24,749 bases of DNA, from the IMG/VR virus record IMGVR_UViG_3300032323_002881, positions 1 to 24,749 of that record; one strand, written 5' to 3'. Positions 1 through 17,606 of this stretch are shown in pieces; the stretch's first letter is position 1; the number at the start of each line of letters is the position of its first letter. Both the position numbers and the translations under genes were made by a program. Origin of the DNA: a virus. The notes beneath the pieces are model-generated. The model did not search any database and had not been told where the DNA came from. It worked only from the letters and a program-made list of their open reading frames with translations.

Positions 1-801
1 AAGTTTAGAAAACTATTGTCCTGGTTAGGCGCAGATGATCTAACTGTGCGCCGACTGGTCATTGATGCAGTCAGATTACGAGAATTAGTTGCACCCGAAC
101 AACTCGAACCGGAACCTGAACAAGAGATTGCGTATGAAGCCAGAACATTGCCCGAACAAGCACGAAATGTAGTCGAACTAGCTAACTTTTACAGTATCGG
201 TGATTACAACAATGTACCTGCTGAATTACTTGCTGCAATAGAATATGTTAACCGCAGAGCAATAAATATCAATAAATATAATTTTTATTGGACTCCGGAA
301 GAAGCTTATAATTTGCACCGAAGAATCATTGTTCCTTTTTACTATCAAAAGGAACTTATAGGCTACACTGCACGTGGTATCGCAGATGGAATTAAGCCTA
401 AATATTATTCAAATCATCCGGCAGATTACGTTTTTAATCTTGATAATCAAAAATCAAACAGTAAATTTGTTATCGTATGTGAAGGTCCTTTTGATGCAAT
501 GAGCATAGATGGTGTAAGTATAAATGGTTCTGAAATTTCTGATCAACAAGCAGAACTAATTGATAGATTACAACGCGAAGTAATTGTTGTACCAGATGCT
601 GATCGCCCTGGTGAAAAAATCATTGATCGTGCCATTGAATTAGGGTGGACAGTAAGTTTTCCTATATGGCAGGAAACTTGTAAAGATATAAATGAAGCTG
701 TTATTAAATATGGTAAGTTATTTACGTTGTTTGCTATTTTAGCGTCTCGCGAGCATAATAAATTACGAATAAAAATTATGAAAAACAAACATAATAATTA
801 A
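1..801 (+). CDS. DNA primase, T4 gp61-like, 3' part (5' end outside window)
   Basis: This is the C-terminal part of a toprim primase, which makes RNA primers at the fork together with the DnaB-like helicase encoded downstream. The frame is open from base 1, so the TTG at 16 is not the true start; the zinc-finger end would lie upstream. Counting from that TTG, the toprim glutamate is in CEGPFDAM (about residues 155-162) and the metal-binding aspartates are in PDADRPG (about 193-199). GYTARGI before the toprim is usual for phage primases. The stop is followed one base later by a radical SAM gene, which separates primase from helicase; in many T4-like phages these two lie close together. Identification as a toprim primase is firm; gp61 type is inferred from context. 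Confidence 0.85.
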   Translation, partial: KFRKLLSWLGADDLTVRRLVIDAVRLRELVAPEQLEPEPEQEIAYEARTLPEQARNVVELANFYSIGDYNNVPAELLAAIEYVNRRAININKYNFYWTPEEAYNLHRRIIVPFYYQKELIGYTARGIADGIKPKYYSNHPADYVFNLDNQKSNSKFVIVCEGPFDAMSIDGVSINGSEISDQQAELIDRLQREVIVVPDADRPGEKIIDRAIELGWTVSFPIWQETCKDINEAVIKYGKLFTLFAILASREHNKLRIKIMKNKHNN

Positions 802-802
802 A

Positions 803-2338
803 ATGAAAACAGTAGATATAGTATTATGTGTTATTCCGGTTATTCATACGAGATCTGTTACCCTCGGCCCTGCATTATTAAAATCTTATTTAAGTGAAGC
901 AGGATTTTCATCAAAGATAATTGACTTTAATATAAGATTGTATGCTGAATTAACTGACGAAACAAGACAAAATGTAGAAAGTTTTTTACTATCAATGTCA
1001 GACGAACACGTTAGAGGCAAAACAGAATCTTTTGAAATGATAGAAAATTGGGCGAATGAAATATTAAGTCATAAACCTAAATTTATAGCTTGTAGCGTTT
1101 TTAGTTTTCAGTCGCAAAAAGCCACAAAAATTTTAGTTTCATATTTAAAACAAAAATCTCCAGATACAAAAATTTTATTAGGTGGATCAGGTTTAAGTAG
1201 TTCTGGAATAGCCAATGATGCAGATTTTGCAGACAATCTTCAAAAAAAAGGTATTATTGATTATTATATAAGAGGCGCAGGTGAAGAATCATTGGTACAA
1301 TTGCTTAAGGGTAACGTTTCACCCAGCGTTAATTCGTTTAGTGCAGTTACAATCACACACGATTTTTTAAAAAATATATCATATCCAAATTTTGATGATT
1401 ATGATTTCAACCAATTTGAACTTTCTTTGCCCATAATGAGTAGTCGCGGTTGTATAAGAAAATGTTCCTTTTGTGATGTACATCAAACAAGCAAATATCA
1501 TTTTAGAACTGGAGAGTCGGTATTTAATGAAATGAAATATCAAAGTCAAAAATATAAAATTTCGCATTTTCATTTTACAGATAGTTTAAACAACGGACAT
1601 CTTAAAGAATTCGTCAAACTTCTTACGTTATTAGATGAATACAACAGTTCAGCGGCAAATCCTATAAAATGGGGTAGCCAATACATAATCAGATCCGAAA
1701 AGCAATTGCCTGAAAATTATTGGCATCTCATGTCTAAATCTGCAGCTCAAATTTCAATAGGTATAGAAACAGGTAGCGATCGAGTTCGAGAACATATGAA
1801 CAAAAGATTCACCAATGCTGATATTGAATACACGTTTAAAAAATGTGAAGAATATAATATTCCCATTCATGTCATGATAATCGTAGGGTACCCAACTGAA
1901 ACTATTGAAGATTTTAACGAAACTTTAAGTTTTTTTTCAAAATATCAGCATCTAGCAAAAAAAAATATTATTCAAGGTGTTCAAATTGGCAACGGATTAA
2001 GCATTCTACCCAATACTCCACTAATGGATAACATACAAAAATTAAACATCGACATAGATGAAAAATTTATAGATAATTGGATAGCAAATGATAACCCTGA
2101 TTTAACATTTCAAGAAAGAATTTTGCGAGCAAAGATACTTAATGATCATGTTAAAAATCTTGGATATAATCTTCCTGATGCAACATCAATTGATAGACTA
2201 GAAAACGAAATACCATATTATGAAAAGAGAAATAAGATTAGAAAAATTATAAAAATTAAAGAGCAAAAAAAAATTGAATCTCAAATACAATCGCATTATA
2301 ATACTAACAATTTATTAAATGATAATGGAAAAATATAA
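803..2338 (+). CDS. B12-binding-type radical SAM protein
   Basis: A 511-residue radical SAM enzyme with a probable N-terminal cobalamin-binding-like Rossmann domain (about 1-165: TLGPALLKSYLSEAGF, ILLGGSG) followed by a radical SAM barrel. The 4Fe-4S motif CxxxCxxC is at Cys217, Cys221 and Cys224, and GIETGSDRVREHMNKRF further on is the usual SAM-barrel glycine/glutamate motif. The C-terminal tail (about 430-511) is Lys/Asn/Ile-rich. Relatives perform methylations or rearrangements, but the substrate cannot be read from sequence. The DxHxxG histidine motif of B12-ligating domains is not evident, so cobalamin use is uncertain. The gene sits between primase and helicase, overlaps the helicase start by 20 bases, and seems more AT-rich than its neighbours, consistent with an inserted accessory gene. 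Confidence 0.85.
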   Translation: MKTVDIVLCVIPVIHTRSVTLGPALLKSYLSEAGFSSKIIDFNIRLYAELTDETRQNVESFLLSMSDEHVRGKTESFEMIENWANEILSHKPKFIACSVFSFQSQKATKILVSYLKQKSPDTKILLGGSGLSSSGIANDADFADNLQKKGIIDYYIRGAGEESLVQLLKGNVSPSVNSFSAVTITHDFLKNISYPNFDDYDFNQFELSLPIMSSRGCIRKCSFCDVHQTSKYHFRTGESVFNEMKYQSQKYKISHFHFTDSLNNGHLKEFVKLLTLLDEYNSSAANPIKWGSQYIIRSEKQLPENYWHLMSKSAAQISIGIETGSDRVREHMNKRFTNADIEYTFKKCEEYNIPIHVMIIVGYPTETIEDFNETLSFFSKYQHLAKKNIIQGVQIGNGLSILPNTPLMDNIQKLNIDIDEKFIDNWIANDNPDLTFQERILRAKILNDHVKNLGYNLPDATSIDRLENEIPYYEKRNKIRKIIKIKEQKKIESQIQSHYNTNNLLNDNGKI

Positions 2339-3083
2339 CTCTGAATTACAAAAACTATTTTTAGAAATGATGCTGCAGGATGCAGAGACATATGTGCGTG
2401 TTCAAAATATTTATAATGCAGAAAACTTTGATCGTAGTTTACGTGAAGCTGCTCGTTTTATTAAAAAACACAGCGAAGATCATAAAACACTTCCAACAAG
2501 AGAACAAATTCAAGCGGCAACAGGAACAGAATTACGTGAAGTCCCTGAACTAAGAGAAGGTCATTACGACTGGTTTCTGACAGAATTTGAAAGTTTTAGT
2601 CGTAAACAAGAACTAGAGCGAGCTATTCTTCGAGCAGCAGACATGATTGAAAAAGGTGACTTTGATCCAGTGGAAAAATTGATCAAAGATGCAGTGCAGA
2701 TCAGTCTGACCAAAGACATGGGCACAGACTATTTTGAAGATCCTAGAGCTCGACTATTAAAAATTAAATCGAACAATGGACAAGTAAGCACAGGCTGGCC
2801 TACAATGGATCAACGACTGTTTGGCGGAATGAATCGCGGTGAACTTAATATTTTTGCTGGCGGCTCCGGTAGTGGTAAAAGTCTTTTTATGCAAAACATT
2901 GCTCTTAATTGGATCACTGCCGGGCTTAATGGTGTTTTCTTAACATTAGAACTAAGTGAAGAATTAACTGCTATGCGTATGGATGCAATGGCAGCAAATT
3001 GTAGCACTAAAGAAATTTTTAAAGATTTAGACACATTAGAAATGAAGATTAAATTTCTAGGTAAAAAATCTGGTAGGCTTTGA
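2319..3083 (+). CDS. Replicative DnaB-like helicase, N-terminal half (gp41-like), ends at in-frame TGA
   Basis: This is the first half of a T4 gp41/DnaB-type hexameric helicase, which unwinds duplex DNA ahead of the polymerase and works with the primase. It has a helical N-terminal domain (about 1-140), then STGWPTMDQRLFGGMNRGEL leading to the Walker A motif GGSGSGKS at about residues 181-188. The next elements, FLTLELSEE and the following helices, are normal. The frame then meets TGA at 3081-3083, just after KSGRL, where the family continues directly towards Walker B. The second half resumes in the same frame at 3093. A protein stopping here would lack Walker B and the DNA-contacting C-terminal motifs, so it should not be an active helicase alone. 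A start at 2325 (second ATG) is also possible. Confidence 0.85.
   Translation: MIMEKYNSELQKLFLEMMLQDAETYVRVQNIYNAENFDRSLREAARFIKKHSEDHKTLPTREQIQAATGTELREVPELREGHYDWFLTEFESFSRKQELERAILRAADMIEKGDFDPVEKLIKDAVQISLTKDMGTDYFEDPRARLLKIKSNNGQVSTGWPTMDQRLFGGMNRGELNIFAGGSGSGKSLFMQNIALNWITAGLNGVFLTLELSEELTAMRMDAMAANCSTKEIFKDLDTLEMKIKFLGKKSGRL
3081..3083 (+). other. In-frame TGA interrupting the helicase gene
   Basis: The two helicase halves are in the same frame. Reading this TGA as sense gives 477 residues, close to the 475 of T4 gp41. Nothing is missing or inserted: the sequence runs KSGRL-stop-IKYMPAQ straight across a conserved segment. This can be a point mutation, a sequencing or assembly error, or readthrough. 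Other genes here use TGA as a true stop (9302-9304, 13269-13271, 20590-20592, 23831-23833), so a reassigned code is unlikely. Confidence 0.9.
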
Positions 3084-3092
3084 ATTAAATAT

Positions 3093-3752
3093 ATGCCAGC
3101 ACAGAGCAATGTGAATCATATTCGTGCCTATCTAAAAGAACTAGAAATACAAACAGGCCAAAAAACAGATTTTATCATGGTAGACTATCTTGATCTGGTC
3201 ATGCCAGTAAGTGCCAAAGTCAGTCCCAGTGATCTGTTTGTCAAAGACAAATATGTGAGTGAAGAACTCAGAAACTTGGCAAGAGAATTTAACATACTGA
3301 TGATTACTGCGTCGCAGTTGAATCGTAGTGCTGTGGAAGAAATTGAATTTGATCATAGTCATATCTCGGGTGGTATCAGTAAAATTAACACAGCAGATAA
3401 TGTGTTTGGTATCTTTACTTCAAGAGCCATGCGTGAGCGTGGCAGATATCAAATACAGTTAATGAAAACTCGTAGTTCGAGTGGTGTAGGACAAAAAGTT
3501 GATCTTGAGTTCAATCTAGAAAGTCTACGTATTACAGATCCTGGCGAAGACGCTCAGAGTGAAAATGGTGGTCAAGGATTCCGCACCAGCAGTCAGATTA
3601 TGGATCAGATTAAGACTACTGCAACAACTAGTAGTCCTATGATTACAGCCAAACCCAAACCCGGATTTGATCTTGAAAAATCCGTGCAAGCAAATGTTGA
3701 CAGCACCAAGCTAAAACAGATGCTAGCCGGATTAAAATCTAAGGCAGAGTAA
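3093..3752 (+). CDS. Replicative DnaB-like helicase, C-terminal half
   Basis: This is the second half of the gp41-like helicase. It contains the Walker B strand DFIMVDYLDLV (Asp31 counted from this ATG), the motif H3 region MITASQLNRSAVE, and the H4 region LMKTRSSSGVGQKVDLEF that contacts DNA in DnaB-type motors. The last 60 residues are a Thr/Lys-rich linker and a short C-terminal helix. The ATG at 3093 has no convincing Shine-Dalgarno sequence, which argues that it is not a natural start and that the gene was, or is, one continuous reading frame with the upstream half. The stop overlaps the next gene's start (TAATG). Confidence 0.85.
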   Translation: MPAQSNVNHIRAYLKELEIQTGQKTDFIMVDYLDLVMPVSAKVSPSDLFVKDKYVSEELRNLAREFNILMITASQLNRSAVEEIEFDHSHISGGISKINTADNVFGIFTSRAMRERGRYQIQLMKTRSSSGVGQKVDLEFNLESLRITDPGEDAQSENGGQGFRTSSQIMDQIKTTATTSSPMITAKPKPGFDLEKSVQANVDSTKLKQMLAGLKSKAE

Positions 3753-4849
3753 TGGATCAATTTTGCGCCGATATACACAATAATTTAAGTATTAATTTAA
3801 CTAATCGAGGTGTTGAATTAGCTCCTTGTTGTTGGTATACCGAAGGCATTCCTTTAATAGATAACAATAGTTGGAATAACAGTAAATTAATTAAAATTAG
3901 AGAAGATAATAAGAACAATATATTAGATGAATCTGGTTGTAGGCAATGTATATACATGGAAAAAAATGGTTCCCACAGTCTACGCAAAGGAGTTAATGAA
4001 TATTATAATTCTCAATCAACAGATTTATCTGGTCCTCGTGGATTAGAAATTTCAGTTGACTTTACCTGTAACATTGCCTGTGTGTATTGTGGTCCACGAG
4101 TAAGCACACAATGGCGTCGTGAGTTGGGAATAGACAACAAAACATTTCCGATTCGACTCAATAAATTAGACATTATTAAAATATTAGATAAAATTGATTT
4201 AAGTAATCTAGATAACATACATTTTTACGGTGGGGATCCTTTTTTTACTCGTACACATGAAATAATATTAGATTATATTGATAAACGTGTGGGACTAAAA
4301 AAGTTATATATTTGGTATAATACCAATGGAACATTACGTGTTCCTGAGCGGGTATTTGAACTTTGGGATAAATGTAGATTAATCAAGGTTTATTTTAGTA
4401 TTGATGATATAGGAAAAAGATTTGAATATATCAGATATGGAGCAGTTTGGAATCATGTTGAAGATAATATGATGTGGTACCGATCAGAAGCTCCAGTGAA
4501 TGTTATGTTTGCATTACAACCAACACTAAGTTGCTTGAATTTATACTATCATCAAGAATTACATAACTGGAAAACACAAAATTTTAACACCAATAGATTG
4601 GGCGATTTCAACGATATTACACGACACAATGTTTTTAGCAAATTTGAGCTCGGTGCAATGCCAGACGAACTTTTAACAAAATGCTTAGAAAATAATAAAA
4701 ATGATCCCTGGGTAGTTGAATTTTCAAAATCATTTAAGCATAATCCAATAGAACTAGAAAAAACTAAATTGGAAATTAAACAACTTGATCAACGCAGAAA
4801 TCTAAATTTCACAGAGATATTTCCTGAGTTAGCTTCGTATTTCACATAA
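3752..4849 (+). CDS. Radical SAM protein with N-terminal Cys-rich (twitch/SPASM-like) region
   Basis: A 365-residue radical SAM enzyme. The canonical CxxxCxxC is at Cys106, Cys110 and Cys113 (DFTCNIACVYCG). Before it lie APCCWYTEG (Cys26/27) and SGCRQC (Cys63/66), the cysteine pairs expected of an auxiliary-cluster (twitch/SPASM) domain, here N-terminal. IHFYGGDPFF at about 156-165 is the GGE-like SAM-binding strand with Asp in place of Glu. Such enzymes usually modify peptides or act in natural-product or sugar pathways; the substrate is unknown. The gene overlaps the helicase stop by one base and is followed at 4861 by a late promoter. With the B12-type radical SAM gene it brackets the helicase, so this phage invests in at least two Fe-S enzymes. 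Confidence 0.85.
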   Translation: MDQFCADIHNNLSINLTNRGVELAPCCWYTEGIPLIDNNSWNNSKLIKIREDNKNNILDESGCRQCIYMEKNGSHSLRKGVNEYYNSQSTDLSGPRGLEISVDFTCNIACVYCGPRVSTQWRRELGIDNKTFPIRLNKLDIIKILDKIDLSNLDNIHFYGGDPFFTRTHEIILDYIDKRVGLKKLYIWYNTNGTLRVPERVFELWDKCRLIKVYFSIDDIGKRFEYIRYGAVWNHVEDNMMWYRSEAPVNVMFALQPTLSCLNLYYHQELHNWKTQNFNTNRLGDFNDITRHNVFSKFELGAMPDELLTKCLENNKNDPWVVEFSKSFKHNPIELEKTKLEIKQLDQRRNLNFTEIFPELASYFT

Positions 4850-4860
4850 AGCCTAAATCT

Positions 4861-4868
4861 TATAAATA
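4861..4868 (+). promoter_or_regulatory. T4-like late promoter octamer
   Basis: TATAAATA, an exact match to the T4 late consensus, lies 12 bases after the radical SAM stop and 20 bases before the TTG start at 4889. The predicted transcription start is near 4874, giving a short leader that contains the GGAG ribosome site. Confidence 0.75.
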
Positions 4869-4888
4869 TAACTAATCTGGAGTAAATT

Positions 4889-5137
4889 TTGCAAAAGCGT
4901 ACTCGTAGTATCCTTGATGAACTTGCCCACATGCCCGTCACAAAAGACCGGGAAAATCTTGTGGAAAGTAGAGCCGGGCATGTAATACATGGTGCTATAA
5001 ATTTGATTAATTACATCAAAGAAAACTACAATGCTGAACAAGCAGCAGAACTAGAGCGTAGATTATTGAATAGCATACGTGCTCAGGATCCTGCTAAATT
5101 TGCTCGTGGTGTAAGGAGATTTAGGCGTGAAGATTAA
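4889..5137 (+). CDS. Small unknown protein, TTG start
   Basis: An 82-residue charged, mostly helical protein of unknown function, rich in Arg/Glu with a basic C-terminal end (GVRRFRRED). The TTG at 4889 is chosen because GGAG (4879-4882) sits six bases upstream, a late promoter lies immediately before, and no ATG occurs early in the frame. RSILDELAHMPVTKDRENLVESRAGHVI reads like a recurring small T4-like phage protein, but I cannot name it. It overlaps the next gene by 11 bases, so the two are probably translated together in late infection. Confidence 0.75.
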   Translation: MQKRTRSILDELAHMPVTKDRENLVESRAGHVIHGAINLINYIKENYNAEQAAELERRLLNSIRAQDPAKFARGVRRFRRED

Positions 5138-5663
5138 ACACATACTTAATGAAGTTGAAATTGACACATATTCTGTACCGAAGTTTTACAAAAAATTAGG
5201 ACAACAAAGTCAAGTTATAAGACCTACAATACTAAGACATACAAAAGATATTGGCGATTTGTATGTTCATGCCAAATCCGGGATCCGCGATATCGAAAAG
5301 GCACCAGCAGACACCACTAAAGTAATTACAAACATAGATCAAATTGATCAAGGCGCTGCTCAACCATCAGAACAGCCATCTGAACAACCTGCAGAAAAAT
5401 CTGTAGAAAAAGTCGCAAAAACAGATAAAAAACCAATTAGTCAAAATGTACCTAAACTTTATAGTATAACAACTAAATCTGGAATAAAAATAAGTAAACA
5501 CAACGATGGGCTTTGGAGAACTCCCGAAGGACAAGTTCTTGATGATCCAACTTTGATAAATGCTTTAGAAAATCTTGCAACTGCTCAAAGACAAACAGCA
5601 CAAATGGCACCAGGATATCAACCTATGCCACCATCTTCAAAAGTTCAAAGAAGACGCAGATAA
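5127..5663 (+). CDS. Unknown protein with Pro/Glu/Gln linker
   Basis: A 178-residue protein in three parts: an N-terminal region (1-65) starting MKIKHILNE, a disordered linker with near-repeats PSEQPSEQPAEKS (about 87-100), and a C-terminal piece (about 107-150) with SGIKISKHNDGLWRTPEG, ending in a basic SSKVQRRRR tail. The short Ile/Asn/Glu-rich opening resembles those of the genes at 5663, 9993 and 16034, a possible common N-terminal feature. GGAGATTTAGGCGTG just upstream gives a ribosome site. No enzymatic motif is visible. It overlaps the next gene by one base (TAATG). Confidence 0.75.
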   Translation: MKIKHILNEVEIDTYSVPKFYKKLGQQSQVIRPTILRHTKDIGDLYVHAKSGIRDIEKAPADTTKVITNIDQIDQGAAQPSEQPSEQPAEKSVEKVAKTDKKPISQNVPKLYSITTKSGIKISKHNDGLWRTPEGQVLDDPTLINALENLATAQRQTAQMAPGYQPMPPSSKVQRRRR

Positions 5664-6775
5664 TGAATATAGAATTTATTCAATCTTTAAACGAGGCAAT
5701 CACTGGTCGTACTCCTCATCCAGAAGATGCTATCTTTATCAATAGCGCCGCTGCCGCCCAGCAGTTAGCAAGTTTAAAGACCTTGATAGCTAACCCTGCA
5801 AACATTACAATTAAATGGGACGGATACCCTGCTATTATTTTTGGACGATTATCCAATGGTAAAATAGGAATGGCTGACAAATATATGTTTGATAGAGGAG
5901 TACTAGTAACTGGTCCTGAAGAATGGCAAGATTATGATGCAAAAAAAGCATCAGGTGGTTTACGTGGAACTTTGTATAATGCAGCAGCAGCGTTATGGCC
6001 AGGACTAGATGCTGCAACCGTAGGACCTGGATTTTACTGGGCCGACCTGATGTATGCAGGAAAATTAACTCCACAAAATGGAGTGTATGCTTTCAAGCCA
6101 AATCTAGTAGAATATCAAGTTGATATTAAAAGTCCATTAGGAAAAATAATTGGTAACAGCGTCGGCGGAGTAGTAGTACATCAATATTTCCAGAATATAG
6201 GAGAACAACCGGTTCAATGGAACGGGCAAGGATTAGAAAATGTTCCAGGTGGTGTAGCTATAATAAGCCCCACTGCCGGTAATAAGTTTACACTCAAAAC
6301 TCCTGTTCAACAAGAAAGAGCAGCAGATGCTAGTATTCAAAAGTACGGAAAAGAGGTTGATAGCTTATTGGCTCCTTTACCGCAAACTACTAGAGACAAA
6401 ATTAAAACTTATTTTAATAAAAGAATTACAGGACAAACCAATCAAGAATTACATGACTGGCTACAAACACAAATTAGCGGAAAACAATTTAATTACCTAG
6501 TAGGTCCAAATTACGAAGGTGTGTTGTTTATGCAAAATAAAAATGGGGAAGTCACCGAAAGTGTTGGTTATCAAGGACTTAAAAGCATATGGAATTCCAT
6601 GTACTCGTTTAAGCAAAATTTAGCTAAACAATTAGCAAATCAAGTAAAGGGCATTAAAGAATATATAAATGGTGTGCCAGCCGGGGAAGGATTCATTTTT
6701 CCTACACAGTTTGGATTAGTCAAAATTGTAGATAGAGAAGTGTTTAGTGCAGCTAATTTCGCAAAAATGGGCTAA
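5663..6775 (+). CDS. Phage protein with ligase-like KWDG motif (possible DUF6267-type)
   Basis: A 370-residue protein. ITIKWDGYPAIIFGRL has K51-W-D-G54, which resembles motif I (KxDG) of the nucleotidyltransferase superfamily of DNA/RNA ligases and capping enzymes. GFYWADLMY (123-131) could stand for motif III/IIIa. EG occurs at 285-286 (NYEGVLFM) and 342-343 (GEGFIF), and GLVKIVDRE (351-359) resembles motifs IV and V. The order and spacing are those of a ligase-like fold, though the matches are loose. From memory it resembles phage proteins annotated DUF6267, whose function I do not know. If the reading is right, Lys51 would be the nucleotidylated residue. It ends five bases before the late promoter at 6780. 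Confidence 0.75.
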   Translation: MNIEFIQSLNEAITGRTPHPEDAIFINSAAAAQQLASLKTLIANPANITIKWDGYPAIIFGRLSNGKIGMADKYMFDRGVLVTGPEEWQDYDAKKASGGLRGTLYNAAAALWPGLDAATVGPGFYWADLMYAGKLTPQNGVYAFKPNLVEYQVDIKSPLGKIIGNSVGGVVVHQYFQNIGEQPVQWNGQGLENVPGGVAIISPTAGNKFTLKTPVQQERAADASIQKYGKEVDSLLAPLPQTTRDKIKTYFNKRITGQTNQELHDWLQTQISGKQFNYLVGPNYEGVLFMQNKNGEVTESVGYQGLKSIWNSMYSFKQNLAKQLANQVKGIKEYINGVPAGEGFIFPTQFGLVKIVDREVFSAANFAKMG

Positions 6776-6779
6776 CTTG

Positions 6780-6787
6780 TATAAATA
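6780..6787 (+). promoter_or_regulatory. T4-like late promoter octamer
   Basis: TATAAATA upstream of the gene at 6825. The predicted start of transcription is about 6793, so the leader begins at the GCGGAAACGC element (6794-6803) and includes AGGAG (6813-6817). Gene, terminator and promoter form a self-contained late unit. Confidence 0.8.
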
Positions 6788-6793
6788 TTAACA

Positions 6794-6817
6794 GCGGAAA
6801 CGCAAATAATTTAGGAG
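6794..6817 (+). promoter_or_regulatory. Leader element: GNRA mini-hairpin plus Shine-Dalgarno (copy 1)
   Basis: GCG-GAAA-CGC at 6794-6803 can form a three-pair stem closed by a GNRA loop, followed by AAATAATTT and AGGAG. The same arrangement recurs at 7344-7366 with GTAA as loop, so both loops fit GNRA. It lies at the predicted 5' end of the late mRNA; mRNA stabilisation or help with translation is inference. Confidence 0.5.
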
Positions 6818-6824
6818 AAATAAA

Positions 6825-7274
6825 ATGACAATCGGAGTCCAAAGAGTACATGGCGATTCACAAGTTGTAAATAACATTGGTGACAGCCAAACAAGAAATG
6901 CTAATGCCGTAATTATTAACACAGGTATAAACAGCCCAATTCAGGCTTACAAAATCACTACCTTAGGTGCTACTGCTAACCTAGCAGCAGAATTAAGAGG
7001 CCCAAGTGCATCAGAAAAAGATCCTGCAGTACACACACTACTAAAAACAATCAGCTCAAATGCTACAGTTCTAGCATATCAAGTTGATACAAATGGTTCA
7101 ACAGCACAATTAAGTGTTATTACTGAACGTAGCAGTTGGACAGCAGCCGATTTACAAGTTGCCATTCGTACACTAAGTCACGATGGCACACCTGGTGCAA
7201 ACATTGGTGCGTATGGTAATGTATTCCCTGCACTAGCAACAGTTACAACCACAAGCGGTATCAAGATTGCTTAA
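6825..7274 (+). CDS. Late gene of unknown function, possible virion protein
   Basis: A 149-residue protein rich in Ala, Thr, Asn and Ser with almost no Cys or aromatic residues, as is common for beta-rich virion proteins. It opens MTIGVQRVHGDSQ and ends TTTSGIKIA. It has its own late promoter, a strong AGGAG site and its own terminator (7295-7320), which suggests high late expression. The next gene (7374) shares the leader, a similar MxIGxxR opening, an ADLQVAIRTL/AASLQTALQAIG segment and a TVT(T/S)xx ending, so the two may be paralogues. A structural or decoration role is inferred from expression signals only. Confidence 0.8.
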   Translation: MTIGVQRVHGDSQVVNNIGDSQTRNANAVIINTGINSPIQAYKITTLGATANLAAELRGPSASEKDPAVHTLLKTISSNATVLAYQVDTNGSTAQLSVITERSSWTAADLQVAIRTLSHDGTPGANIGAYGNVFPALATVTTTSGIKIA

Positions 7275-7294
7275 TTGATTTGATATCAGTAAAG

Positions 7295-7320
7295 AAAGCA
7301 GCTTCGGCTGCTTTTTTTTT
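7295..7320 (+). terminator. Rho-independent terminator with UUCG loop
   Basis: AAAGCAGC (7295-7302), loop TTCG, GCTGCTTT (7307-7314): a perfect eight-pair stem running into a T tract up to 7320. It ends the unit that begins at the late promoter at 6780. Confidence 0.92.
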
Positions 7321-7328
7321 ATAGGTAC

Positions 7329-7336
7329 CATAAATA
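7329..7336 (+). promoter_or_regulatory. T4-like late promoter octamer (CATAAATA variant)
   Basis: CATAAATA lies nine bases after the T tract of the preceding terminator and 38 bases before the ATG at 7374. It differs from the T4 late consensus at the first base only and occupies the same place relative to the leader element as the octamer at 6780. Confidence 0.7.
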
Positions 7337-7343
7337 CATACAT

Positions 7344-7366
7344 GCGGTAACGCAAATAATTAGGAG
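7344..7366 (+). promoter_or_regulatory. Leader element: GNRA mini-hairpin plus Shine-Dalgarno (copy 2)
   Basis: GCG-GTAA-CGC (7344-7353) with an extra T-A pair outside, followed by AAATAATT and AGGAG (7362-7366). Apart from the loop base and one- or two-base length changes in the A/T runs, it matches the leader at 6794-6817. Confidence 0.5.
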
Positions 7367-7373
7367 AATAAAA

Positions 7374-7724
7374 ATGCCAATTGGAATTGATCGCAGTGCA
7401 GGTTATTTTTTTGCAGGTACAACAGGTACTTTAATTGAACCCGGACAAAGTATTGCACTTTATGTAGTAAATGCTGGTGTTAACTTATCAGCTGAGGATG
7501 ATGCAGCAAATGAAGCATATGAAGCAATTATTCAAGCATTTCCACCGGTTTTAGCTTATTATGCACATCCAACAAGTGGTGTAATTAGTTTGGTATGTGA
7601 CGGAGTAAATGCCCCTGATGCAGCTTCTTTACAAACTGCATTACAAGCAATTGGAACTAAAAAAGGTTCTGTTAACTTGTCAAGTGCTACAGTAACAAGT
7701 GGGACAAGTTTTGTAGTGTCTTAA
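7374..7724 (+). CDS. Late gene of unknown function, possible paralogue of the gene at 6825
   Basis: A 116-residue acidic protein, opening MPIGIDRSAGYFF and ending SSATVTSGTSFVVS. It has a dedicated late promoter, a strong AGGAG and a terminator, like its upstream neighbour. EPGQSIALYVVNAG and a middle helical segment (about 40-60, AEDDAANEAYEAIIQAF) precede SGVISLVCDG and ASLQTALQAIGTKKG, the last comparable to a segment of the upstream protein. No catalytic motif is seen. High-level late expression suggests a virion or assembly role, but this is inference. Confidence 0.8.
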   Translation: MPIGIDRSAGYFFAGTTGTLIEPGQSIALYVVNAGVNLSAEDDAANEAYEAIIQAFPPVLAYYAHPTSGVISLVCDGVNAPDAASLQTALQAIGTKKGSVNLSSATVTSGTSFVVS

Positions 7725-7742
7725 TCTAATAAACTACAATAG

Positions 7743-7768
7743 AAGGCAGACTTCGGTCTGCTTTTTTT
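7743..7768 (+). terminator. Rho-independent terminator with UUCG loop
   Basis: GCAGAC (7746-7751), loop TTCG, GTCTGC (7756-7761), then seven T. It closes the unit of the gene at 7374; the next late promoter begins only six bases further on. Confidence 0.92.
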
Positions 7769-7773
7769 GTGAC

Positions 7774-7781
7774 TATAAATA
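7774..7781 (+). promoter_or_regulatory. T4-like late promoter octamer, start of transcription at or next to the ATG
   Basis: TATAAATA ends six bases before the ATG at 7787. With T4 geometry (octamer at -13 to -6) transcription would begin at the A of that ATG, so the mRNA would be leaderless. Confidence 0.75.
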
Positions 7782-7786
7782 TCTAT

Positions 7787-8215
7787 ATGAAATTTTACAC
7801 TTGTGCCACATTAGTTGACATTACTGCCACCGGCGTTATTCGTCATACGGCAGAAAATGAACTACAAAGAAATCAACAACGAAATTGGGAAACAGTATTA
7901 CAGTGTATAGGTTTGAAATCACAACCTCAGTTAATAGATGGCCCTTATTGTAACGAACTTGATATAGATGATTCTACAGTATTTGGCGATTATTTTTTAG
8001 GTACTAGGCAAAAAGTTTGGATGTTTAGCTTTGGTATAGAATCCCAAGATGTTTTTCTATTAGACAATGATCCTGTAGGTTATTTAGATAAAGATTTTGC
8101 TCAAGTACCTGTCATTTGCGGATTAACAGAAACAGCTAGATTTATATTACCTATTTTTTACCCGTACGGATCTATTAAAAACATATACTTTATAGAAGGA
8201 CGTTTTCGTCTATAA
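7787..8215 (+). CDS. Unknown T4-like phage protein, probably leaderless
   Basis: A 142-residue protein: MKFYTCATLVDITATGVIRH, then NQQRNWETVLQCIGLKSQPQLIDGP, and an aromatic-rich C-terminal half. The whole reads as a small globular protein of a type I associate with marine T4-like phages, function unknown. The start is placed at ATG 7787, not at the in-frame GTG at 7769, because the GTG lies in the preceding terminator's T tract, upstream of the promoter that would transcribe this gene. There is no Shine-Dalgarno sequence. The stop TAA is embedded in the next late promoter (8211-8218). Confidence 0.8.
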   Translation: MKFYTCATLVDITATGVIRHTAENELQRNQQRNWETVLQCIGLKSQPQLIDGPYCNELDIDDSTVFGDYFLGTRQKVWMFSFGIESQDVFLLDNDPVGYLDKDFAQVPVICGLTETARFILPIFYPYGSIKNIYFIEGRFRL

Positions 8216-8218
8216 ATA
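8211..8218 (+). promoter_or_regulatory. T4-like late promoter octamer overlapping a stop codon
   Basis: TATAAATA contains the TAA stop (8213-8215) of the preceding gene. It would drive the genes from 8318 to about 10460. Predicted transcription start is about 8224, leaving a leader of about 95 bases. Confidence 0.7.
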
Positions 8219-8317
8219 TCTTTTGATTCACTGGCACAATTAGGCTTTACTCATGGCACATTTTATAGGCAAGTACACAGAACCCTTTGCTTTTTTTTAC
8301 GAAAGAAAAATAATAAA

Positions 8318-8611
8318 ATGGCTGAAAGCGAAAGAACCGACCTTGGAGCACATGTGGATTTATGTGCTGAAAGGTACCGTACGTTGGAAAAGAAATTAGA
8401 TAACTTAGAAGAACGTATGGATAAATTAGAGGAGCATATTATTGTCATACGAACTACACTTATGGCAAATCAAACGACACAATCATTGACTAAGGACGGA
8501 GCAACAGCAACCGAAAAAGCTCAAGGAACGATCATTACAATAGGCACCGCTTTTGGGGTAGCTCTATTAACAGGCTTAATTACAGCAATAGTTCATTTTA
8601 TAATGAAATAA
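8318..8611 (+). CDS. Coiled-coil plus C-terminal membrane-anchor protein (XhlA/holin-like?)
   Basis: A 97-residue protein. Residues about 18-50 (RYRTLEKKLDNLEERMDKLEEH) form a heptad coiled coil; about 71-96 (TIITIGTAFGVALLTGLITAIVHFIM) is one membrane segment at the C-terminus. Coiled coil followed by a terminal transmembrane helix is the plan of XhlA-type and other small phage lysis or membrane proteins. The opening SERTDLGAHVDLCAERY is conserved in style among T4-like small proteins. A role in lysis or membrane anchoring is plausible but unproven. Ribosome site is weak (GAAAG). Confidence 0.75.
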   Translation: MAESERTDLGAHVDLCAERYRTLEKKLDNLEERMDKLEEHIIVIRTTLMANQTTQSLTKDGATATEKAQGTIITIGTAFGVALLTGLITAIVHFIMK

Positions 8612-8613
8612 AA

Positions 8614-8820
8614 ATGAAAATAGTAGAATTATTAAATAATGTAAAACTATCCATTACTAATGAAGAAGCAGATGTACTGGGAAAGTTTGATAAGGATAAA
8701 AAAATTGCTAAAAAAGATCTAGATCAACGACAGATATATATTGCAAATAATTTAGTTAACAAAGATATTTTACATAGAAAAAATGAAAAAGGAAAAATTT
8801 ACTACAAGAAAAAAATTTAA
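8614..8820 (+). CDS. Small Lys-rich unknown protein
   Basis: A 68-residue very basic protein (MKIVELLNNVKLSITNEEADVLGKF, then many Lys, ending KGKIYYKKKI). The pattern of two helices then NLVNKDILHRKNEKGKIYYKKK looks like a small winged-helix fold, where the last two strands form the wing; this is a guess from pattern only. It starts two bases after the previous stop, so it is probably cotranscribed from the late promoter at 8211, and its 3' end overlaps the next gene by 38 bases. Confidence 0.7.
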   Translation: MKIVELLNNVKLSITNEEADVLGKFDKDKKIAKKDLDQRQIYIANNLVNKDILHRKNEKGKIYYKKKI

Positions 8821-9304
8821 AGAAGTACGACAAGTTTTTTCTGAGTTTGGCATAAAATATATAACAGAATGGACTGAAAAACAATTACAAAACTATAAAA
8901 ATCAACCCGTAATTATACCACGCGGTAATTACGGGTTTTTACTTGGCACATATGAAATAAATGGAATTCATAGTGCATGCTGGAGAGTAAAAGTTCAAAA
9001 CGAAGACAATATTATCCACGATTTTCAAAGTAAACTAGCAGCAATAATATACTGTTATTATTTGATAAATAATAAATTATTACCTGCCTATGAGTTAGCC
9101 GAGCTCGACGGAAAATTAGGCAGATTAGATTTAGATATTTTATATTTTAAAAATAGTCTAAAGAATTGTAAAGATACTTTTAAATGGAACATTATAAATG
9201 ATAGATACTATCAATCTATTAGGAGAAAGAATCAACTATCCGAAATTTTAAAAAAAACTTTAAAATCGGCTAAATACTTAAACTTTGGGAACCAAATAAT
9301 ATGA
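8783..9304 (+). CDS. Unknown protein, basic, overlapping start
   Basis: A 173-residue protein with no motif I recognise: basic N-terminus (MKKEKFTTRKKFKEV), a strand-rich centre (PRGNYGFLLGTYEINGIHSACWRVKVQNED), then helices ending LKSAKYLNFGNQII. The ATG lies inside the 3' end of the preceding gene (38-base overlap), so the start is less secure. The stop TGA overlaps the ATG of the next gene (ATGA). The coding region contains a perfect 12-pair inverted repeat followed by T5 (8904-8940). It is AT-rich compared with flanking structural genes, as are the SGNH and radical SAM genes. Confidence 0.7.
   Translation: MKKEKFTTRKKFKEVRQVFSEFGIKYITEWTEKQLQNYKNQPVIIPRGNYGFLLGTYEINGIHSACWRVKVQNEDNIIHDFQSKLAAIIYCYYLINNKLLPAYELAELDGKLGRLDLDILYFKNSLKNCKDTFKWNIINDRYYQSIRRKNQLSEILKKTLKSAKYLNFGNQII
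8904..8940 (+). terminator. Terminator-like hairpin inside a coding region
   Basis: AACCCGTAATTA (8904-8915) and TAATTACGGGTT (8926-8937) are perfect reverse complements, 12 pairs around a 10-base loop, followed immediately by T to 8940. The sequence has the form of an intrinsic terminator but lies within codons of the gene at 8783 (NQPVIIPRGNYGFLLG). Confidence 0.6.
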
Positions 9305-9993
9305 GATTAACAGAAATGGGGCACAAACCCACAACAAAAAAAATTAACAAGGTAATGGAAAGTCGTTTTGGAATTAAAATTGATTATAACAATTTGACTT
9401 TTCCAAAAGCTCTTAAATTAGCCCAAGGACTTACTGAAAGTCTAAATCAAGTTAAATTAAGCCATGGTGCTCATGTTGCAGAAAAAAATTCCAAATATAT
9501 GGAGTTACTCATGTTACGTGAAGGTATCCATCGTTGGATGATAGAAAACAAGCATATACTGTTAGCTGAAAGCGAAATGGGTAAGAGCCAGGCTATTCTT
9601 GCTGCAAAGGATATGGTTGATAGTATCCAGGACATGCTCGAAGAAGTTAGCAAAATGCAAAATGAGCAAATGCCTGCATTACTAGATACGATCCGCGATC
9701 AGATTGGCATGGAACAAGCAGATGCATTTAAAGCAGCAGTCGAACCTTTACTGCAAGAAATGTCACAACAATTAAGTTCGGCTAGAGGTACTGCTGATAA
9801 CGCTGCTCGTGCATTAGCTGGAGAGCAGGTTGCACAACCAATGGATATGGGAGGCATGAATGCCGCAGTTGGTGGTACTCCAGGCCAAATGCCTTCTACA
9901 CCTGTAGTCGGCGGTGAAATTGAAACAGATAGTTTTGGGGCAACTGATGCAGCAGCCGGCGGAACATCTTCGTTAGGTCGTGAGAAGCGTTAA
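9301..9993 (+). CDS. Unknown, probable virion or assembly protein, helical with Gly-rich tail
   Basis: A 230-residue protein. Residues about 1-60 carry GHKPTTKKINKVMESRFG and a helical domain; about 60-165 are long amphipathic helices (EMGKSQAILAAKDMVDSIQDMLEEVSKMQ) likely to form coiled coils; from about 180 the chain becomes Gly/Met/Pro/Ala-rich and disordered (MGGMNAAVGGTPGQMPSTP). This combination is seen in phage core, scaffold or tail proteins, and I regard a structural or assembly role as likely but not shown. It starts inside the preceding stop (ATGA) and ends overlapping the next start (TAATG), so it is tightly coupled to both. Confidence 0.75.
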   Translation: MRLTEMGHKPTTKKINKVMESRFGIKIDYNNLTFPKALKLAQGLTESLNQVKLSHGAHVAEKNSKYMELLMLREGIHRWMIENKHILLAESEMGKSQAILAAKDMVDSIQDMLEEVSKMQNEQMPALLDTIRDQIGMEQADAFKAAVEPLLQEMSQQLSSARGTADNAARALAGEQVAQPMDMGGMNAAVGGTPGQMPSTPVVGGEIETDSFGATDAAAGGTSSLGREKR

Positions 9994-10460
9994 TGCGTGT
10001 TAACGAAATTATTGTCGAAGATACTTTAGACGATATCTTAGAGGATGAGGCTGCAGATCCTGTAGTCTTCTCTTTGATAGATATTCTTGAGGCGTTAAGA
10101 AATAGAGCACACGATAATCATGCAGTACCTAGAGTTAGAGCAGATAGTTTAATTAATCTTGTTCAACTGCAACATCCACAATTCACTTTAGATACATTAC
10201 TTCAATTGAAGTCCGACAACGAAAATGTCAAAGAATTGATCAAGGACATTAAGGACGTTAGTGTAACTTCCAATCCAAACAATCCTGATCAGGTGTCAAT
10301 AAATAACAATTCTGGCAGCCAGATTGTAAAATATGTCTATCTTAAACCGTTTGCAGATGACGATGAAGAGAATGATCTTCAAGGCGAATATGCACCAAAA
10401 ACCGCTCCGGAAAAGACTGTTGATGCAATGGCCAAATCTGCTCTTGCAAAACGCGGTTAA
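9993..10460 (+). CDS. Unknown acidic protein
   Basis: A 155-residue acidic protein, pI clearly low from sequence: MRVNEIIVEDTLDDILEDEAADP, then a helical region RADSLINLVQLQHPQFTLDTLLQLK, a short region QIVKYVYLKPFADDDEEND and a basic end (AKSALAKRG). The opening is similar in style to MKIKHILNE (5127) and [12 protein letters not shown] (16034), which may reflect a shared short N-terminal signal in proteins of this phage. No catalytic motif. Coupled to the upstream gene by TAATG. Confidence 0.72.
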   Translation: MRVNEIIVEDTLDDILEDEAADPVVFSLIDILEALRNRAHDNHAVPRVRADSLINLVQLQHPQFTLDTLLQLKSDNENVKELIKDIKDVSVTSNPNNPDQVSINNNSGSQIVKYVYLKPFADDDEENDLQGEYAPKTAPEKTVDAMAKSALAKRG

Positions 10461-10472
10461 ATAATTTATAAT
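10444..10472 (+). promoter_or_regulatory. Sigma70-like promoter before iscU
   Basis: TTGCAA (10444-10449), 17-base spacer, TATAAT (10467-10472). The -10 is a perfect match and the -35 matches 4 of 6. Transcription would begin near 10479, just before AAAGGAG, giving a leader of about 11 bases. It would let host polymerase transcribe iscU-iscA early. No regulator site seen. Confidence 0.5.
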
Positions 10473-10489
10473 AACTCAAAGGAGACCAT

Positions 10490-10888
10490 ATGGCTTATTC
10501 AGGTCAAGTTCTGGATCACTATGAGAATCCACGTAATGTAGGTAAATTAGATAAAAATGATCCGCGTGTTGGTACAGGATTAGTTGGAGCTCCTGCATGC
10601 GGGGATGTATTACAGTTACAAATACAAGTAGACGATGGAGTAATTACAGATGCGAAATTTAAGACATATGGTTGCGGTTCGGCGATCGCATCGTCGTCGC
10701 TGGTTACTACGTGGCTTAAAGGAAAAAGTCTTAATGAAGCGGCAGAAATTAAGAATACCCACATTGCGGAAGAACTCGCGTTACCTCCAGTTAAAATACA
10801 CTGTAGCATTTTAGCAGAAGATGCTATCAAAGCCGCACTATCAGATTATAGAATAAAAAATGATACAACTGACAGATCTAGCAGCTAA
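10490..10888 (+). CDS. iscU: IscU-like Fe-S cluster scaffold protein
   Basis: IscU builds 2Fe-2S and 4Fe-4S clusters on three cysteines using sulfur from IscS and hands them on. All hallmarks are present: Cys37 with Asp39 in GAPACGDV, Cys62 in TYGCGSAIASSS, and His104-Cys105 in LPPVKIHCSILAEDAI; the LPPVK motif (98-102) is the HscA chaperone-binding site. Length (132) matches cellular IscU (128), with a few extra C-terminal residues. No IscS or HscA gene lies in this window, so it would depend on the host for sulfur donation and chaperones. It has its own RBS (AGGAG) and possible promoter, and overlaps iscA by 29 bases. Most likely supports Fe-S enzymes such as the two radical SAM proteins (inference). 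Confidence 0.95.
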   Translation: MAYSGQVLDHYENPRNVGKLDKNDPRVGTGLVGAPACGDVLQLQIQVDDGVITDAKFKTYGCGSAIASSSLVTTWLKGKSLNEAAEIKNTHIAEELALPPVKIHCSILAEDAIKAALSDYRIKNDTTDRSSS

Positions 10889-11186
10889 GAAAGTTACACA
10901 ACAAATATCTAGACGCGGTAGCGGAATAGGCATCATGATTGGTGTTCGAACCACCGGATGTTCTGGATTGGCTTATAAACTAGAATATGTAGACACTCCC
11001 CCGGTTACCCGTGATTGGATAAAGTACGACAGTAATGGAGTCACAGTGTGGGTTAACGGTAAAGACCATCCATATATAAATGGTCTTACAATGGACTACA
11101 GACGTCATGGACTTAACGAAGGATTTGAATTTATTAACCCAAATGAACGAGATCGATGCGGTTGCGGCGAAAGTTTCCGAGTTTAA
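10860..11186 (+). CDS. iscA: IscA-like Fe-S cluster carrier
   Basis: A 108-residue A-type carrier, which takes clusters from IscU to target enzymes. The three ligands are in place: Cys34 in TTGCSGLAYKLEY and Cys100/Cys102 in CGCGESF at the C-terminus, as in E. coli IscA (35, 99, 101). NGLTMDYRRHGLNEGFEFINPNE is the usual IscA core. It lies within the 3' end of iscU and stops immediately before the nuclease ATG at 11187. The pair iscU-iscA is the compact part of the bacterial isc operon, without iscS, hscBA and fdx. Confidence 0.95.
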   Translation: MIQLTDLAAKKVTQQISRRGSGIGIMIGVRTTGCSGLAYKLEYVDTPPVTRDWIKYDSNGVTVWVNGKDHPYINGLTMDYRRHGLNEGFEFINPNERDRCGCGESFRV

Positions 11187-11885
11187 ATGATTACAGCAAA
11201 ATTTGATTATACGCCTCTAGCCAGAGAAAGCGTAGAAGGTAAGCGTCATTATGCCCTTCCAGATGGAAGTCGTGTTCCTAGTGTTACAACTATACTTGAT
11301 AAGACCAAACCAGCAGAAGCACGACAAAAACTTCAAGAATGGAAAAATAGGGTAGGTGTTGAACGAGCACAACAGATCACCACTGAAGCTGCTAATCGTG
11401 GAACTAGAATGCATACCTATCTTGAACGTTACATTAAGAATGACGATTTAGGAGAACTACCTACAAATCCGTTCGCACAGCCAAGTTGGTTTATGGCGGC
11501 ACAGGTTATATTAGAAGGATTGCAACATGTTGATGAATATTGGGGTTGCGAGGTGCCTTTATATTATTCTGGGCTGTATGCTGGTACTACTGACTGTGTC
11601 GGCCTATGGAAGGGACAGCCTGCAATCATGGATTTTAAGCAAACGAATAAACCTAAAAAACGTGAATGGATCGACGATTATTTTTTGCAGCTCGCAGCGT
11701 ATGCGGCAGCTCACAACGATACACACGGAACCCAGATCAATTCGGGAATTATTCTCATGTGTGCTAAACCTGCTGATGAAAACACCACTCCTCAGTACCA
11801 AGAATTCATACTAGAACCTAAGGATTTTCAGTACTGGAGCGATCAATGGATGCGTAGAGTAGAGCTCTACTATCTTACAAGCTAA
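11187..11885 (+). CDS. PD-(D/E)XK nuclease, RecB/exonuclease-like
   Basis: A 232-residue nuclease. The RecB-type motif set is visible in order: GTRMH (72-76), Glu122 in CEVPLYY, Asp136 in GTTDCVG, D149-F-K151 in IMDFKQ, and Q168-x-x-x-Y172 in QLAAYAAAHN. These position a metal-dependent phosphodiesterase site used by exonucleases in recombination, repair or host DNA degradation. Proteins of this kind are found in T4-like phages and annotated simply as exonuclease. The start follows the iscA stop directly. Confidence 0.88.
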   Translation: MITAKFDYTPLARESVEGKRHYALPDGSRVPSVTTILDKTKPAEARQKLQEWKNRVGVERAQQITTEAANRGTRMHTYLERYIKNDDLGELPTNPFAQPSWFMAAQVILEGLQHVDEYWGCEVPLYYSGLYAGTTDCVGLWKGQPAIMDFKQTNKPKKREWIDDYFLQLAAYAAAHNDTHGTQINSGIILMCAKPADENTTPQYQEFILEPKDFQYWSDQWMRRVELYYLTS

Positions 11886-11888
11886 ATA
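11881..11888 (+). promoter_or_regulatory. Weak late-promoter-like octamer
   Basis: GCTAAATA overlaps the nuclease stop and lies 21 bases before the tail-fibre ATG at 11910, in the place where late promoters sit elsewhere here. It differs from TATAAATA at two positions, so this is only a candidate. AGGAT precedes the ATG. Confidence 0.3.
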
Positions 11889-11909
11889 CACAACAATTGA
11901 GGATTTAGC

Positions 11910-13271
11910 ATGGCTGTTACACAAGTAAGTAGAATTCAACACAGACGAGGACTTCAGCAAGATTTGCCACAGTTAGCTTCGGCCGAATTAGGTTGGAGTG
12001 TAGATGAACAAAAGTTATACATTGGTAATGGCACTCTTGAGGAAGGTGCACCCAGCACTGGTGTAACCGAAATACTTACACAAAAATCACTTGACTCTGG
12101 CGAATTAATTAGACTGTTAGGTAGTTATTCATTTTTTGGCAACTTAGCCGGATATACTGCACAAACTGGTCCTAGTTCTTTATCACCTATTCAACGCAGT
12201 TTACAAGATAAACTTGATGACATTGTTAATATTCGAGATTTTGGCGCAGTTGGTGACGGCGTCACAGATGATACAGCAGCTATTAATAGAGCACTTCAAC
12301 AAATTTATCTATCAACAGCAAGTAACATTGAACCTAGAGCAAGAAGAACAATTTATTTTCCTGGCGGCACATACTTAACCTCATACTCATTAACAATACC
12401 AACATACGCCAGATTGGTGGGCGATGGATTATCTAGCAGTATTATCAAGTTAACACAAGCAGCATATTCTGTTGCTAATATTACAGATAGTAAATTTCAA
12501 AACTCAACATCAATAGGTACAAATGGTGCAACTAAACCCAATGATGTTGAAATTAGTGGCTTGAGTTTTTTTAATTCAAACTTATCATTAAGTTCCCCAC
12601 TATTCATAATTGATAGTGCAACCAATGTAAAAATCTATAACACTAGTTTTGTTTCCAATCTTACAACTGCAAATTTAATTAATATACGTTCAACTGTAAG
12701 TAATACAAATGCGGTTACTTTTGACTCATGTAAATTTATTAGAGCAGGCAATGCAGTAACTATCAACAATGTTGTTAGTAGCGTCAGGATCTTTAATAGC
12801 ATGTTTGATAATATTGTTTACAATGCTTTATCTGTAGTCGGTTTAGAAAACTTGATAAGTGTAGGTAATTATTTTGGTAATGTAGGTAATGTATTTCAAT
12901 CAAATACTTCAGAATTAGTTAGTATCGGAGATACAAAATATGGTAATTTTGATGACTTATCTGGAGTAAGATTAGGAAAACTACAAATTTTATCAACCAA
13001 ATCTACAACTATAACTACAGCCGAGACTGTTATTCCAATAGCAGCAAATACTATGGGAAGTATAAAGTATCAAATCAGCAATAGTTCAGCAAGAAGATTT
13101 GGTGAATGTTCTTTTGTGAATGGTTCGTCATCGACTTTTATAAATGATGAATTTATTGAAACCGGGGTGTCAATTAGAGCAATAATATCGGCCAATAATG
13201 ATTCATTAGTTGTATCATTAACCTCGGGTGCGTCTGCAACATTTGATTACAATCTAATAAAATTTAATTGA
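11910..13271 (+). CDS. Tail fibre/spike protein with Mtd-N-like start and pectate-lyase beta-helix
   Basis: A 453-residue receptor-binding or depolymerase-type tail protein. Residues about 4-45 (VSRIQHRRGLQQDLP...AELGWSVDEQKLYIGNG) match the Mtd N-terminal domain found at the start of many phage tail fibres. From about 105, VNIRDFGAVGDGVTDDTAAINRAL is the classic opening of the pectate-lyase-3 superfamily right-handed beta-helix, followed by YFPGGTYLTSYSLTIPTYARLVGDG and many N/S/T/V strand repeats to about 375; a short trimerisation-like end follows. Whether it cuts a polysaccharide or only binds is not clear. The stop TGA overlaps the next start (TTG at 13268). Confidence 0.9.
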   Translation: MAVTQVSRIQHRRGLQQDLPQLASAELGWSVDEQKLYIGNGTLEEGAPSTGVTEILTQKSLDSGELIRLLGSYSFFGNLAGYTAQTGPSSLSPIQRSLQDKLDDIVNIRDFGAVGDGVTDDTAAINRALQQIYLSTASNIEPRARRTIYFPGGTYLTSYSLTIPTYARLVGDGLSSSIIKLTQAAYSVANITDSKFQNSTSIGTNGATKPNDVEISGLSFFNSNLSLSSPLFIIDSATNVKIYNTSFVSNLTTANLINIRSTVSNTNAVTFDSCKFIRAGNAVTINNVVSSVRIFNSMFDNIVYNALSVVGLENLISVGNYFGNVGNVFQSNTSELVSIGDTKYGNFDDLSGVRLGKLQILSTKSTTITTAETVIPIAANTMGSIKYQISNSSARRFGECSFVNGSSSTFINDEFIETGVSIRAIISANNDSLVVSLTSGASATFDYNLIKFN

Positions 13272-13717
13272 TTTTTAAACTAGACCAATCTAAAAGATTA
13301 GCTCGGTGGAAATCTTTTAGGCAAGAAATAAGTTTTATGCCATTAGAAACGGCATTAGAAAAAACTGTTCAATTCTGGAGCCAATGTCCATTTTCTCCGT
13401 TTTATCTATCGGAAAATTCTACCAATGATTGGCCAGATCCATGGGAATTATTGAAAGAAAATTACTACTGTGATCTTGCTAAAGTATTAGGAATTGTATA
13501 TACTTTACATCTATCTGAACATAATAATTTATTACCCGAAATACGCATATACTCTGACCTAATTAAGCGTCATACTTACAATATAGCTTACCTTGCTCGA
13601 GGAAAATATGTACTTAATTTGATTGAGGGTGCTATTGTAAATAAAGAACACATAAATCAAAATTTAAAATTAAAACACTGCTACACAGCAGCAGATTTAA
13701 AATTAGAACAATACTAA
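13268..13717 (+). CDS. Unknown protein, TTG start overlapping tail-fibre stop
   Basis: A 149-residue protein: FKLDQSKRLARWKSFRQEISFM, then TALEKTVQFWSQCPFSPFYLS, NDWPDPWELLKENYYCDLAKVLGIVYTL and a basic/aromatic C-terminal half. The order of conserved-looking W, P and Y residues suggests a globular, conserved T4-like phage protein, but I cannot assign a function. The TTG at 13268-13270 forms TTGA with the upstream stop; an alternative start is not evident before residue 24 (ATG). No ribosome site, so translational coupling to the tail-fibre gene is likely. Confidence 0.7.
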   Translation: MIFKLDQSKRLARWKSFRQEISFMPLETALEKTVQFWSQCPFSPFYLSENSTNDWPDPWELLKENYYCDLAKVLGIVYTLHLSEHNNLLPEIRIYSDLIKRHTYNIAYLARGKYVLNLIEGAIVNKEHINQNLKLKHCYTAADLKLEQY

Positions 13718-13726
13718 GAGGCGTTG

Positions 13727-16030: not shown

Positions 16031-16033
16031 AAT

Positions 16034-16477
16034 ATGAATATCAGAAAGTATATAAATTTATTTGAGGACCGAGGCATTACCGATGATTGGTTCGCCAAGG
16101 GTGCGTTTAAGACTTATAAGCAACCTAATCCTGAAAAGTATCAAATAGCACAGACTGACGGAGTTATTCAAACGTTAGAAGGTCCAGTAAATTATAAACA
16201 AGGATATTATATTTTAACTGGCCCAAAAGGTGAACAATATCCCATGCCGCCGGAAAAGTTTCGTGAACTAAAAGATGACGCAGGTGATGGTGTTTGCTAC
16301 CCAAAGAAAATTGTTAAATTAGCCAAAATGGCTGATCATGATGGTTCAGTTGCAACCAGTTGGGGAGAAAAATTAAATTACCAGGCCGGCGAAGATTTTA
16401 TAGTCAAACATGGTCCCGGTGACTACGGTGTAGTAAAAAAAGACATATTTGCAAAAACTTATGTACAGGAACAATAA
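16034..16477 (+). CDS. Unknown protein with two tandem related repeats, between nrdA and nrdB
   Basis: A 147-residue protein made of an N-terminal tail (1-40, [20 protein letters not shown]) and two related domains. Repeat 1 (42-80) [16 protein letters not shown]...[14 protein letters not shown] aligns with repeat 2 (102-143) [20 protein letters not shown]...[13 protein letters not shown]. The shared pattern is DGx3Tx2G, NYx2G, GPxG(E/D)xY, F. Similar small beta domains ending PGDYGV...F occur in bacterial proteins of unknown role. It is coupled to nrdB by a one-base overlap (TAATG), so it is expressed with the reductase; a regulatory or metabolic link is possible but unproven. Confidence 0.78.
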
Positions 16478-17604
16478 TGAGCGTATTTAACATCAATAAT
16501 AAGAATAAACACACTGAATCGTTAGCATTTTTAGACGTTTCTGGGGCACAACCAATCCAACGGTACGATACACTTAAGTATAGGCAGTTTGATAAACTAA
16601 CAGACAAACAATTAGGATTCTTCTGGCGACCAGAAGAAGTAGATGTACTTCGAGATGCAAAAGACTTCAAAGAACTAACAGAACATGAACAACATATTTT
16701 TACAAGTAATCTTAAGCGACAAATCCTTTTGGATAGTGTTCAAGGTCGTAGTCCCAATCTTGCTTTTCTTCCCATCGCTACTATTCCTGAGCTCGAAACT
16801 TGGATTCAAACTTGGGCGTTCAACGAAACTATTCATAGTCGCAGCTATACTCATATTATACGTAATGTTTATAGCGATCCTAGTGTTATATTTGATCAGC
16901 TCACGGATATAAAAGAGATTGTAGATTGTGCCAAGGACATTAGTCGTTATTATGATGATCTAATTGAAACAGTACAGTACTATAATCTACTTGGTTACGG
17001 CGTTCACACAGTTAATGGAAAAGAAATTGTCGTCAATCGCAGAGACCTAAAAAAGAAACTATGGTTGTGCCTTAACAGTGTTAACGCACTAGAAGGCATT
17101 AGATTCTATGTGAGCTTTGCTTGCAGTTGGGCATTTGCAGAGTTGAAAAAGATGGAAGGTAATGCTAAAATTATTAAGCTCATTGCACGAGACGAAAATG
17201 TACACCTTGGGTCAACACAGACCCTCCTGAAGCTGCTTCCAGCAGACGATACCGACTATACTTCTATCCGAGAAGAAACTCGTGCAGAATGTGAGCAAAT
17301 GTTTTTGGCAGCAGCAGCCCAAGAAAAAGCCTGGGCACATTATTTGTTCAAAGACGGATCAATGATTGGACTCAATGAACAGTTATTGAGTCAATATGTG
17401 GACTGGTTGACCTGCAAGCGTATGACAGCAGTAGGATTGAATTGCGGAATGAAACCAGGATCCAATCCATTACCTTGGACGGCCAAATGGATTGCTGGCG
17501 CAGAAGTACAAGTGGCTCCACAAGAAACAGAAATTTCAAGTTATGTGATTGGTGGCACAAAACAAGATGTAGATAATAATACTTTTAAAGGCTTTAGTTT
17601 GTAA
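16477..17604 (+). CDS. nrdB: Class Ia ribonucleotide reductase, small (beta) subunit
   Basis: NrdB houses the diiron centre and tyrosyl radical. All ligands are present: Asp86 ([11 protein letters not shown]), Glu117 and His120 with radical Tyr124 ([14 protein letters not shown]), Glu206 ([11 protein letters not shown]), Glu240 and His243 ([10 protein letters not shown]); these equal E. coli 84, 115, 118, 122, 204, 238 and 241. Length 375 against 376 in E. coli. The C-terminus NNTFKGFSL is the tail expected to dock on NrdA. The last codons AAAGGCTTTAGTTTGTAATG (17587-17606) also hold the start of the next gene and are repeated before two further genes downstream. Confidence 0.97.
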
Positions 17605-17606
17605 TG
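17587..17606 (+). repeat. nrdB tail / start junction, reference copy
   Basis: AAAGGCTTTAGTTTGTAATG encodes the true NrdB end KGFSL-stop and the overlapping ATG of SGNH copy 1. Related sequences recur at 18334-18353 and 19067-19083 before the other two SGNH genes. Confidence 0.9.

Follow-up and report, generated by a model that had tools for sequence, protein, structure and literature searches.

An in-frame TGA in the replicative helicase gene of an uncultured giant phage is very probably a one-base change in a single metagenomic record

The window (24,749 bases) is the whole of an IMG/VR virus record; it comes from an uncultured giant phage and is probably a fragment of its genome. It carries a gene for a DnaB/gp41-like replicative helicase that is broken by an in-frame TGA and is otherwise fully conserved. 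This TGA is very probably a one-base change specific to the record, an error or a rare defective allele, rather than anything programmed or conserved. One A-to-T substitution, confined to this one metagenomic record, would have converted an arginine codon to a stop, and the underlying gene would encode an otherwise normal single-chain replicative helicase of the gp41/DnaB type. We infer that the TGA stems either from a mistake in the consensus sequence of the assembly or from a non-functional allele that is rare in the population sampled. The features concerned are:

2319..3752, + strand: DnaB/gp41-like replicative helicase gene, 477 codons with the TGA read through (PHROG 19, Pfam DnaB_C)
2859..2882, + strand: Walker A (GGSGSGKS), 5' of the stop
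3081..3083, + strand: in-frame TGA; the near-identical contig has AGA (Arg) here, and 149 homologues have R, Q or W
3093..3752, + strand: mechanical second open reading frame, 219 aa, opened by the ATG for the conserved Met in IKYMPAQ
3168..3194, + strand: Walker B stretch (DFIMVDYLD), 3' of the stop

The helicase frame is open on either side of the TGA, with 254 codons 5' and 222 codons 3', and closes with TAA at 3750–3752. Its two halves cover consecutive parts of the PHROG 19 profile (156–422, then 437–589) and of the Pfam DnaB_C profile (2–81, then 111–252), and the read-through protein scores 80.7 bits against DnaB_C versus 33.7 and 41.0 for the separate parts. The nearest solved structures are gp41-type helicases (8due and 8dtp, E about 1e-22), and the protein is ~48% identical to the helicases of the Pseudomonas jumbo phages PA5oct and MIJ3 and of Agrobacterium phage Atu_ph07. 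DnaB_C extends across both halves and the gene is a single chain in a near-identical contig, as befits a gp41/DnaB-like helicase; as written in the window record it is not a single chain. An earlier note on this DNA had described one continuous helicase frame split at 3081–3083, giving 477 residues on readthrough, with the stop lying between Walker A and Walker B, and the frame and the motif positions (2859–2882 and 3168–3194) bear this out.

The helicase gene is flanked by two radical SAM genes (803–2338 and 3752–4849), the first of which shows a weak match to a B12-binding domain. Elsewhere in the window, adjacent NifU_N-like and Fe-S_biosyn (IscA-type) genes (10490–11186) lie upstream of ribonucleotide reductase genes (13724–17604). 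These are followed by three adjacent related genes of 233, 236 and 225 aa (17604–19758), tandem duplicates by appearance. Repeats in this region are 73–86% identical and lie 1453 bases apart, and the first and third genes share the ending YVIPRLKKDKVIEEKMC.

Only one contig near-identical to the window was found, IMGVR_UViG_3300033571_021915 (L086/L158), recovered by a pattern search with the exact flanks of the window and the central codon left free. It matches window positions 1–15112 at 99.96% identity, with no indels and six substitutions (3081, 4459, 6849, 9783, 12362 and 12380). At 3081 the window has T and the contig A, giving AGA (arginine), and all 477 codons of the helicase in this contig are open. 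Because the contig has AGA, the change is A-to-T and does not follow the pattern of cytosine deamination; for the same reason, the idea that a CGA codon was lost by a C-to-T change was rejected. The window may come from another sample than the contig, one in which the TGA could be common. The earlier note had listed five causes for the stop. Two of them, a defective genome and a sequence error, gain support, whereas readthrough, a suppressor tRNA and a split helicase, taken as features of the lineage, have several observations against them: the sense codon in a contig of this similarity, the lack of a stop at the site in every homologue, the lack of a UCA tRNA in the stretches searched, and the lack of an evolved start or intein at the break.

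The homologues agree with this comparison. The earlier note had proposed looking at the same codon in related genomes, and all 149 homologues that span the site have arginine (99), glutamine (46) or tryptophan (4); a conserved stop, as expected of programmed readthrough or recoding, occurs in none of them. A first alignment, of 80 helicase loci from viral contigs, likewise showed no stop at the site, with R in 48, Q in 31 and W in 1. A degenerate search for a TRR codon (TAA, TAG, TGA or TGG) preceding the conserved ATHAARTAYATGCC motif returned four loci in viral_contigs, all with TGG, and none in genome_contigs. Tryptophan at the site is limited to four relatives, with 63–69% identity. Reassignment of TGA to tryptophan, by which the frame would stay open, was rejected, as arginine is found in the nearest contig and in every close relative. 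With a near-identical contig and about 150 relatives lacking the stop, the TGA is almost certainly a private change.

Isolated lesions of this kind also occur elsewhere in the fetched relatives. The helicases of 153 loci contain one other nonsense codon in 69,651 aligned codons (a TAG at query residue 397 in L066), and two of the 153 loci are frameshifted (L112 and L118). Homologues of other window genes show one nonsense codon in 95,102 (a TAA in L083), and the overall rate is about one isolated nonsense codon per 80,000 codons. These rates, in helicases and in other genes, indicate that lesions confined to a single record are a regular background of the collection. At such a rate the chance of a nonsense codon in any 25-kb record is ~1 in 10, and one that fell in a conserved gene would stand out to a first-stage reader. 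About 4% of random substitutions in the helicase gene create a stop.

An intact contig this close to the window leaves no need to invoke readthrough, suppression or complementation, and nothing supports any of them as the cause of the break. The one that survives best is that the stop is a real nonsense allele, tolerated because a near-cognate tRNA-Trp reads UGA and yields some full-length helicase. Low-level readthrough of UGA by tRNA-Trp is established in bacteria. The site itself is variable (R/Q/W), with tryptophan occurring naturally in four relatives, so a product of tryptophan readthrough would probably fold. However, the TGA is not conserved, and the near-identical contig has arginine. 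Nor does anything point to efficient decoding of UGA, since relatives retain a stop where neighbouring genes end in TGA. Readthrough of this kind is accordingly very unlikely, and just as improbable is an allele that really segregates in this phage population and is tolerated because the host inserts tryptophan at UGA often enough to supply helicase.

The TGA codons in question are part of the ordinary stop usage of this phage. Among the 37 open reading frames taken as genes in the window, 32 end in TAA, five in TGA (including that of the helicase) and none in TAG. Homology read past the gene ends shows that relatives likewise stop where the window has TGA at 9304 and 13271; the remaining TGA gene ends of the window lie at 20592 and 23833. 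No other in-frame TGA was seen to break a recognised gene of the window. TGA is neither read as sense in several genes nor unused as a stop, as would be expected of opal reassignment or suppression; it is a normal stop in this phage family.

Decoding by an opal suppressor tRNA of the phage or its host is less probable still. Only about 25 kb of the phage is sequenced, and an unseen tRNA is therefore possible; the large relatives do encode many tRNAs, including a predicted CUA (amber) tRNA in two of them. However, ARAGORN finds no tRNA gene in the window, nor in the near-identical contig or 29 further loci, and none of the many tRNAs in 38 stretches of four large relatives (about 750 kb) has a UCA anticodon. 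The search for an opal suppressor tRNA, another check put forward in the earlier note, thus came back empty in the window, the near-identical contig and the fetched stretches of the four large relatives. TGA is moreover a used and conserved stop, and only one recognised gene of the window is seen interrupted. Opal suppression has no support, although this is judged from ~25 kb of the phage genome.

The predicted CUA tRNAs, possible amber suppressors, lie at L177:6901-6974 (- strand) and L194:18225-18298, and ARAGORN calls both Pyl. In one of these two relatives, a 72-kb contig, no open reading frame of at least 120 aa ends in TAG, and the other uses TAG.

Equally improbable is a split helicase in which reinitiation at the ATG at 3093 yields a second polypeptide that complements the first to form one ATPase. 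This ATG lies 10 bases 3' of the stop, and a genuine split is present in the family, at a locus (L144) with an apparent split intein. However, the ATG encodes the Met of the family motif IKYMPAQ and is therefore older than the stop; it is an ancestral coding Met and not an evolved start. It also has no good ribosome site, the best anti-SD pairing before it being -2.4 kcal/mol (random median -0.9, 5% value -5.9). The statement in the earlier note that the second half lacks such a site holds, but it is little informative: many window genes have no better one and the start of the helicase gene itself scores 0. The near-identical contig is unsplit. At the break in the window there is no insertion and there are no intein halves; the two parts abut directly without extra residues.

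The main lesson of the preferred reading, a private one-base change, is that near-identical contigs should be consulted before a stop that interrupts an essential gene on a lone contig is put down to readthrough or gene splitting. A stop that proved fixed and tolerated would be relevant to how phages decode UGA.

The window helicase resembles T4 gp41 and the DnaB family (PHROG 19, PF03796) in sequence, in the order of Walker A and B and in its read-through length, and differs from them in the window record in that one TGA cuts the frame between Walker A and B. The gp41 gene is reportedly among those fractured with split inteins. At L144:1184-4104 (- strand) an apparent split intein breaks a gp41-like helicase after residue 336. 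The intein-like N part starts with CLSLDTQV and gives weak Pfam intein matches, under the curated cut-offs. The C part ends in GILTHN followed by a +1 Ser, and a separate open reading frame of 498 codons, stop to stop, with a partial DUF7487 match lies between the helicase halves. The arrangement is similar to that of published split-intein fractured genes (Dassa et al. 2009, as cited in PMC6892783 and PMC11766414). The window shares with such genes a helicase gene in two pieces. In contrast to them it lacks intein halves, a homing endonuclease and inserted DNA, its near-identical contig is intact, and its break, at residue 255, lies elsewhere than the intein site of L144 (after residue 336).
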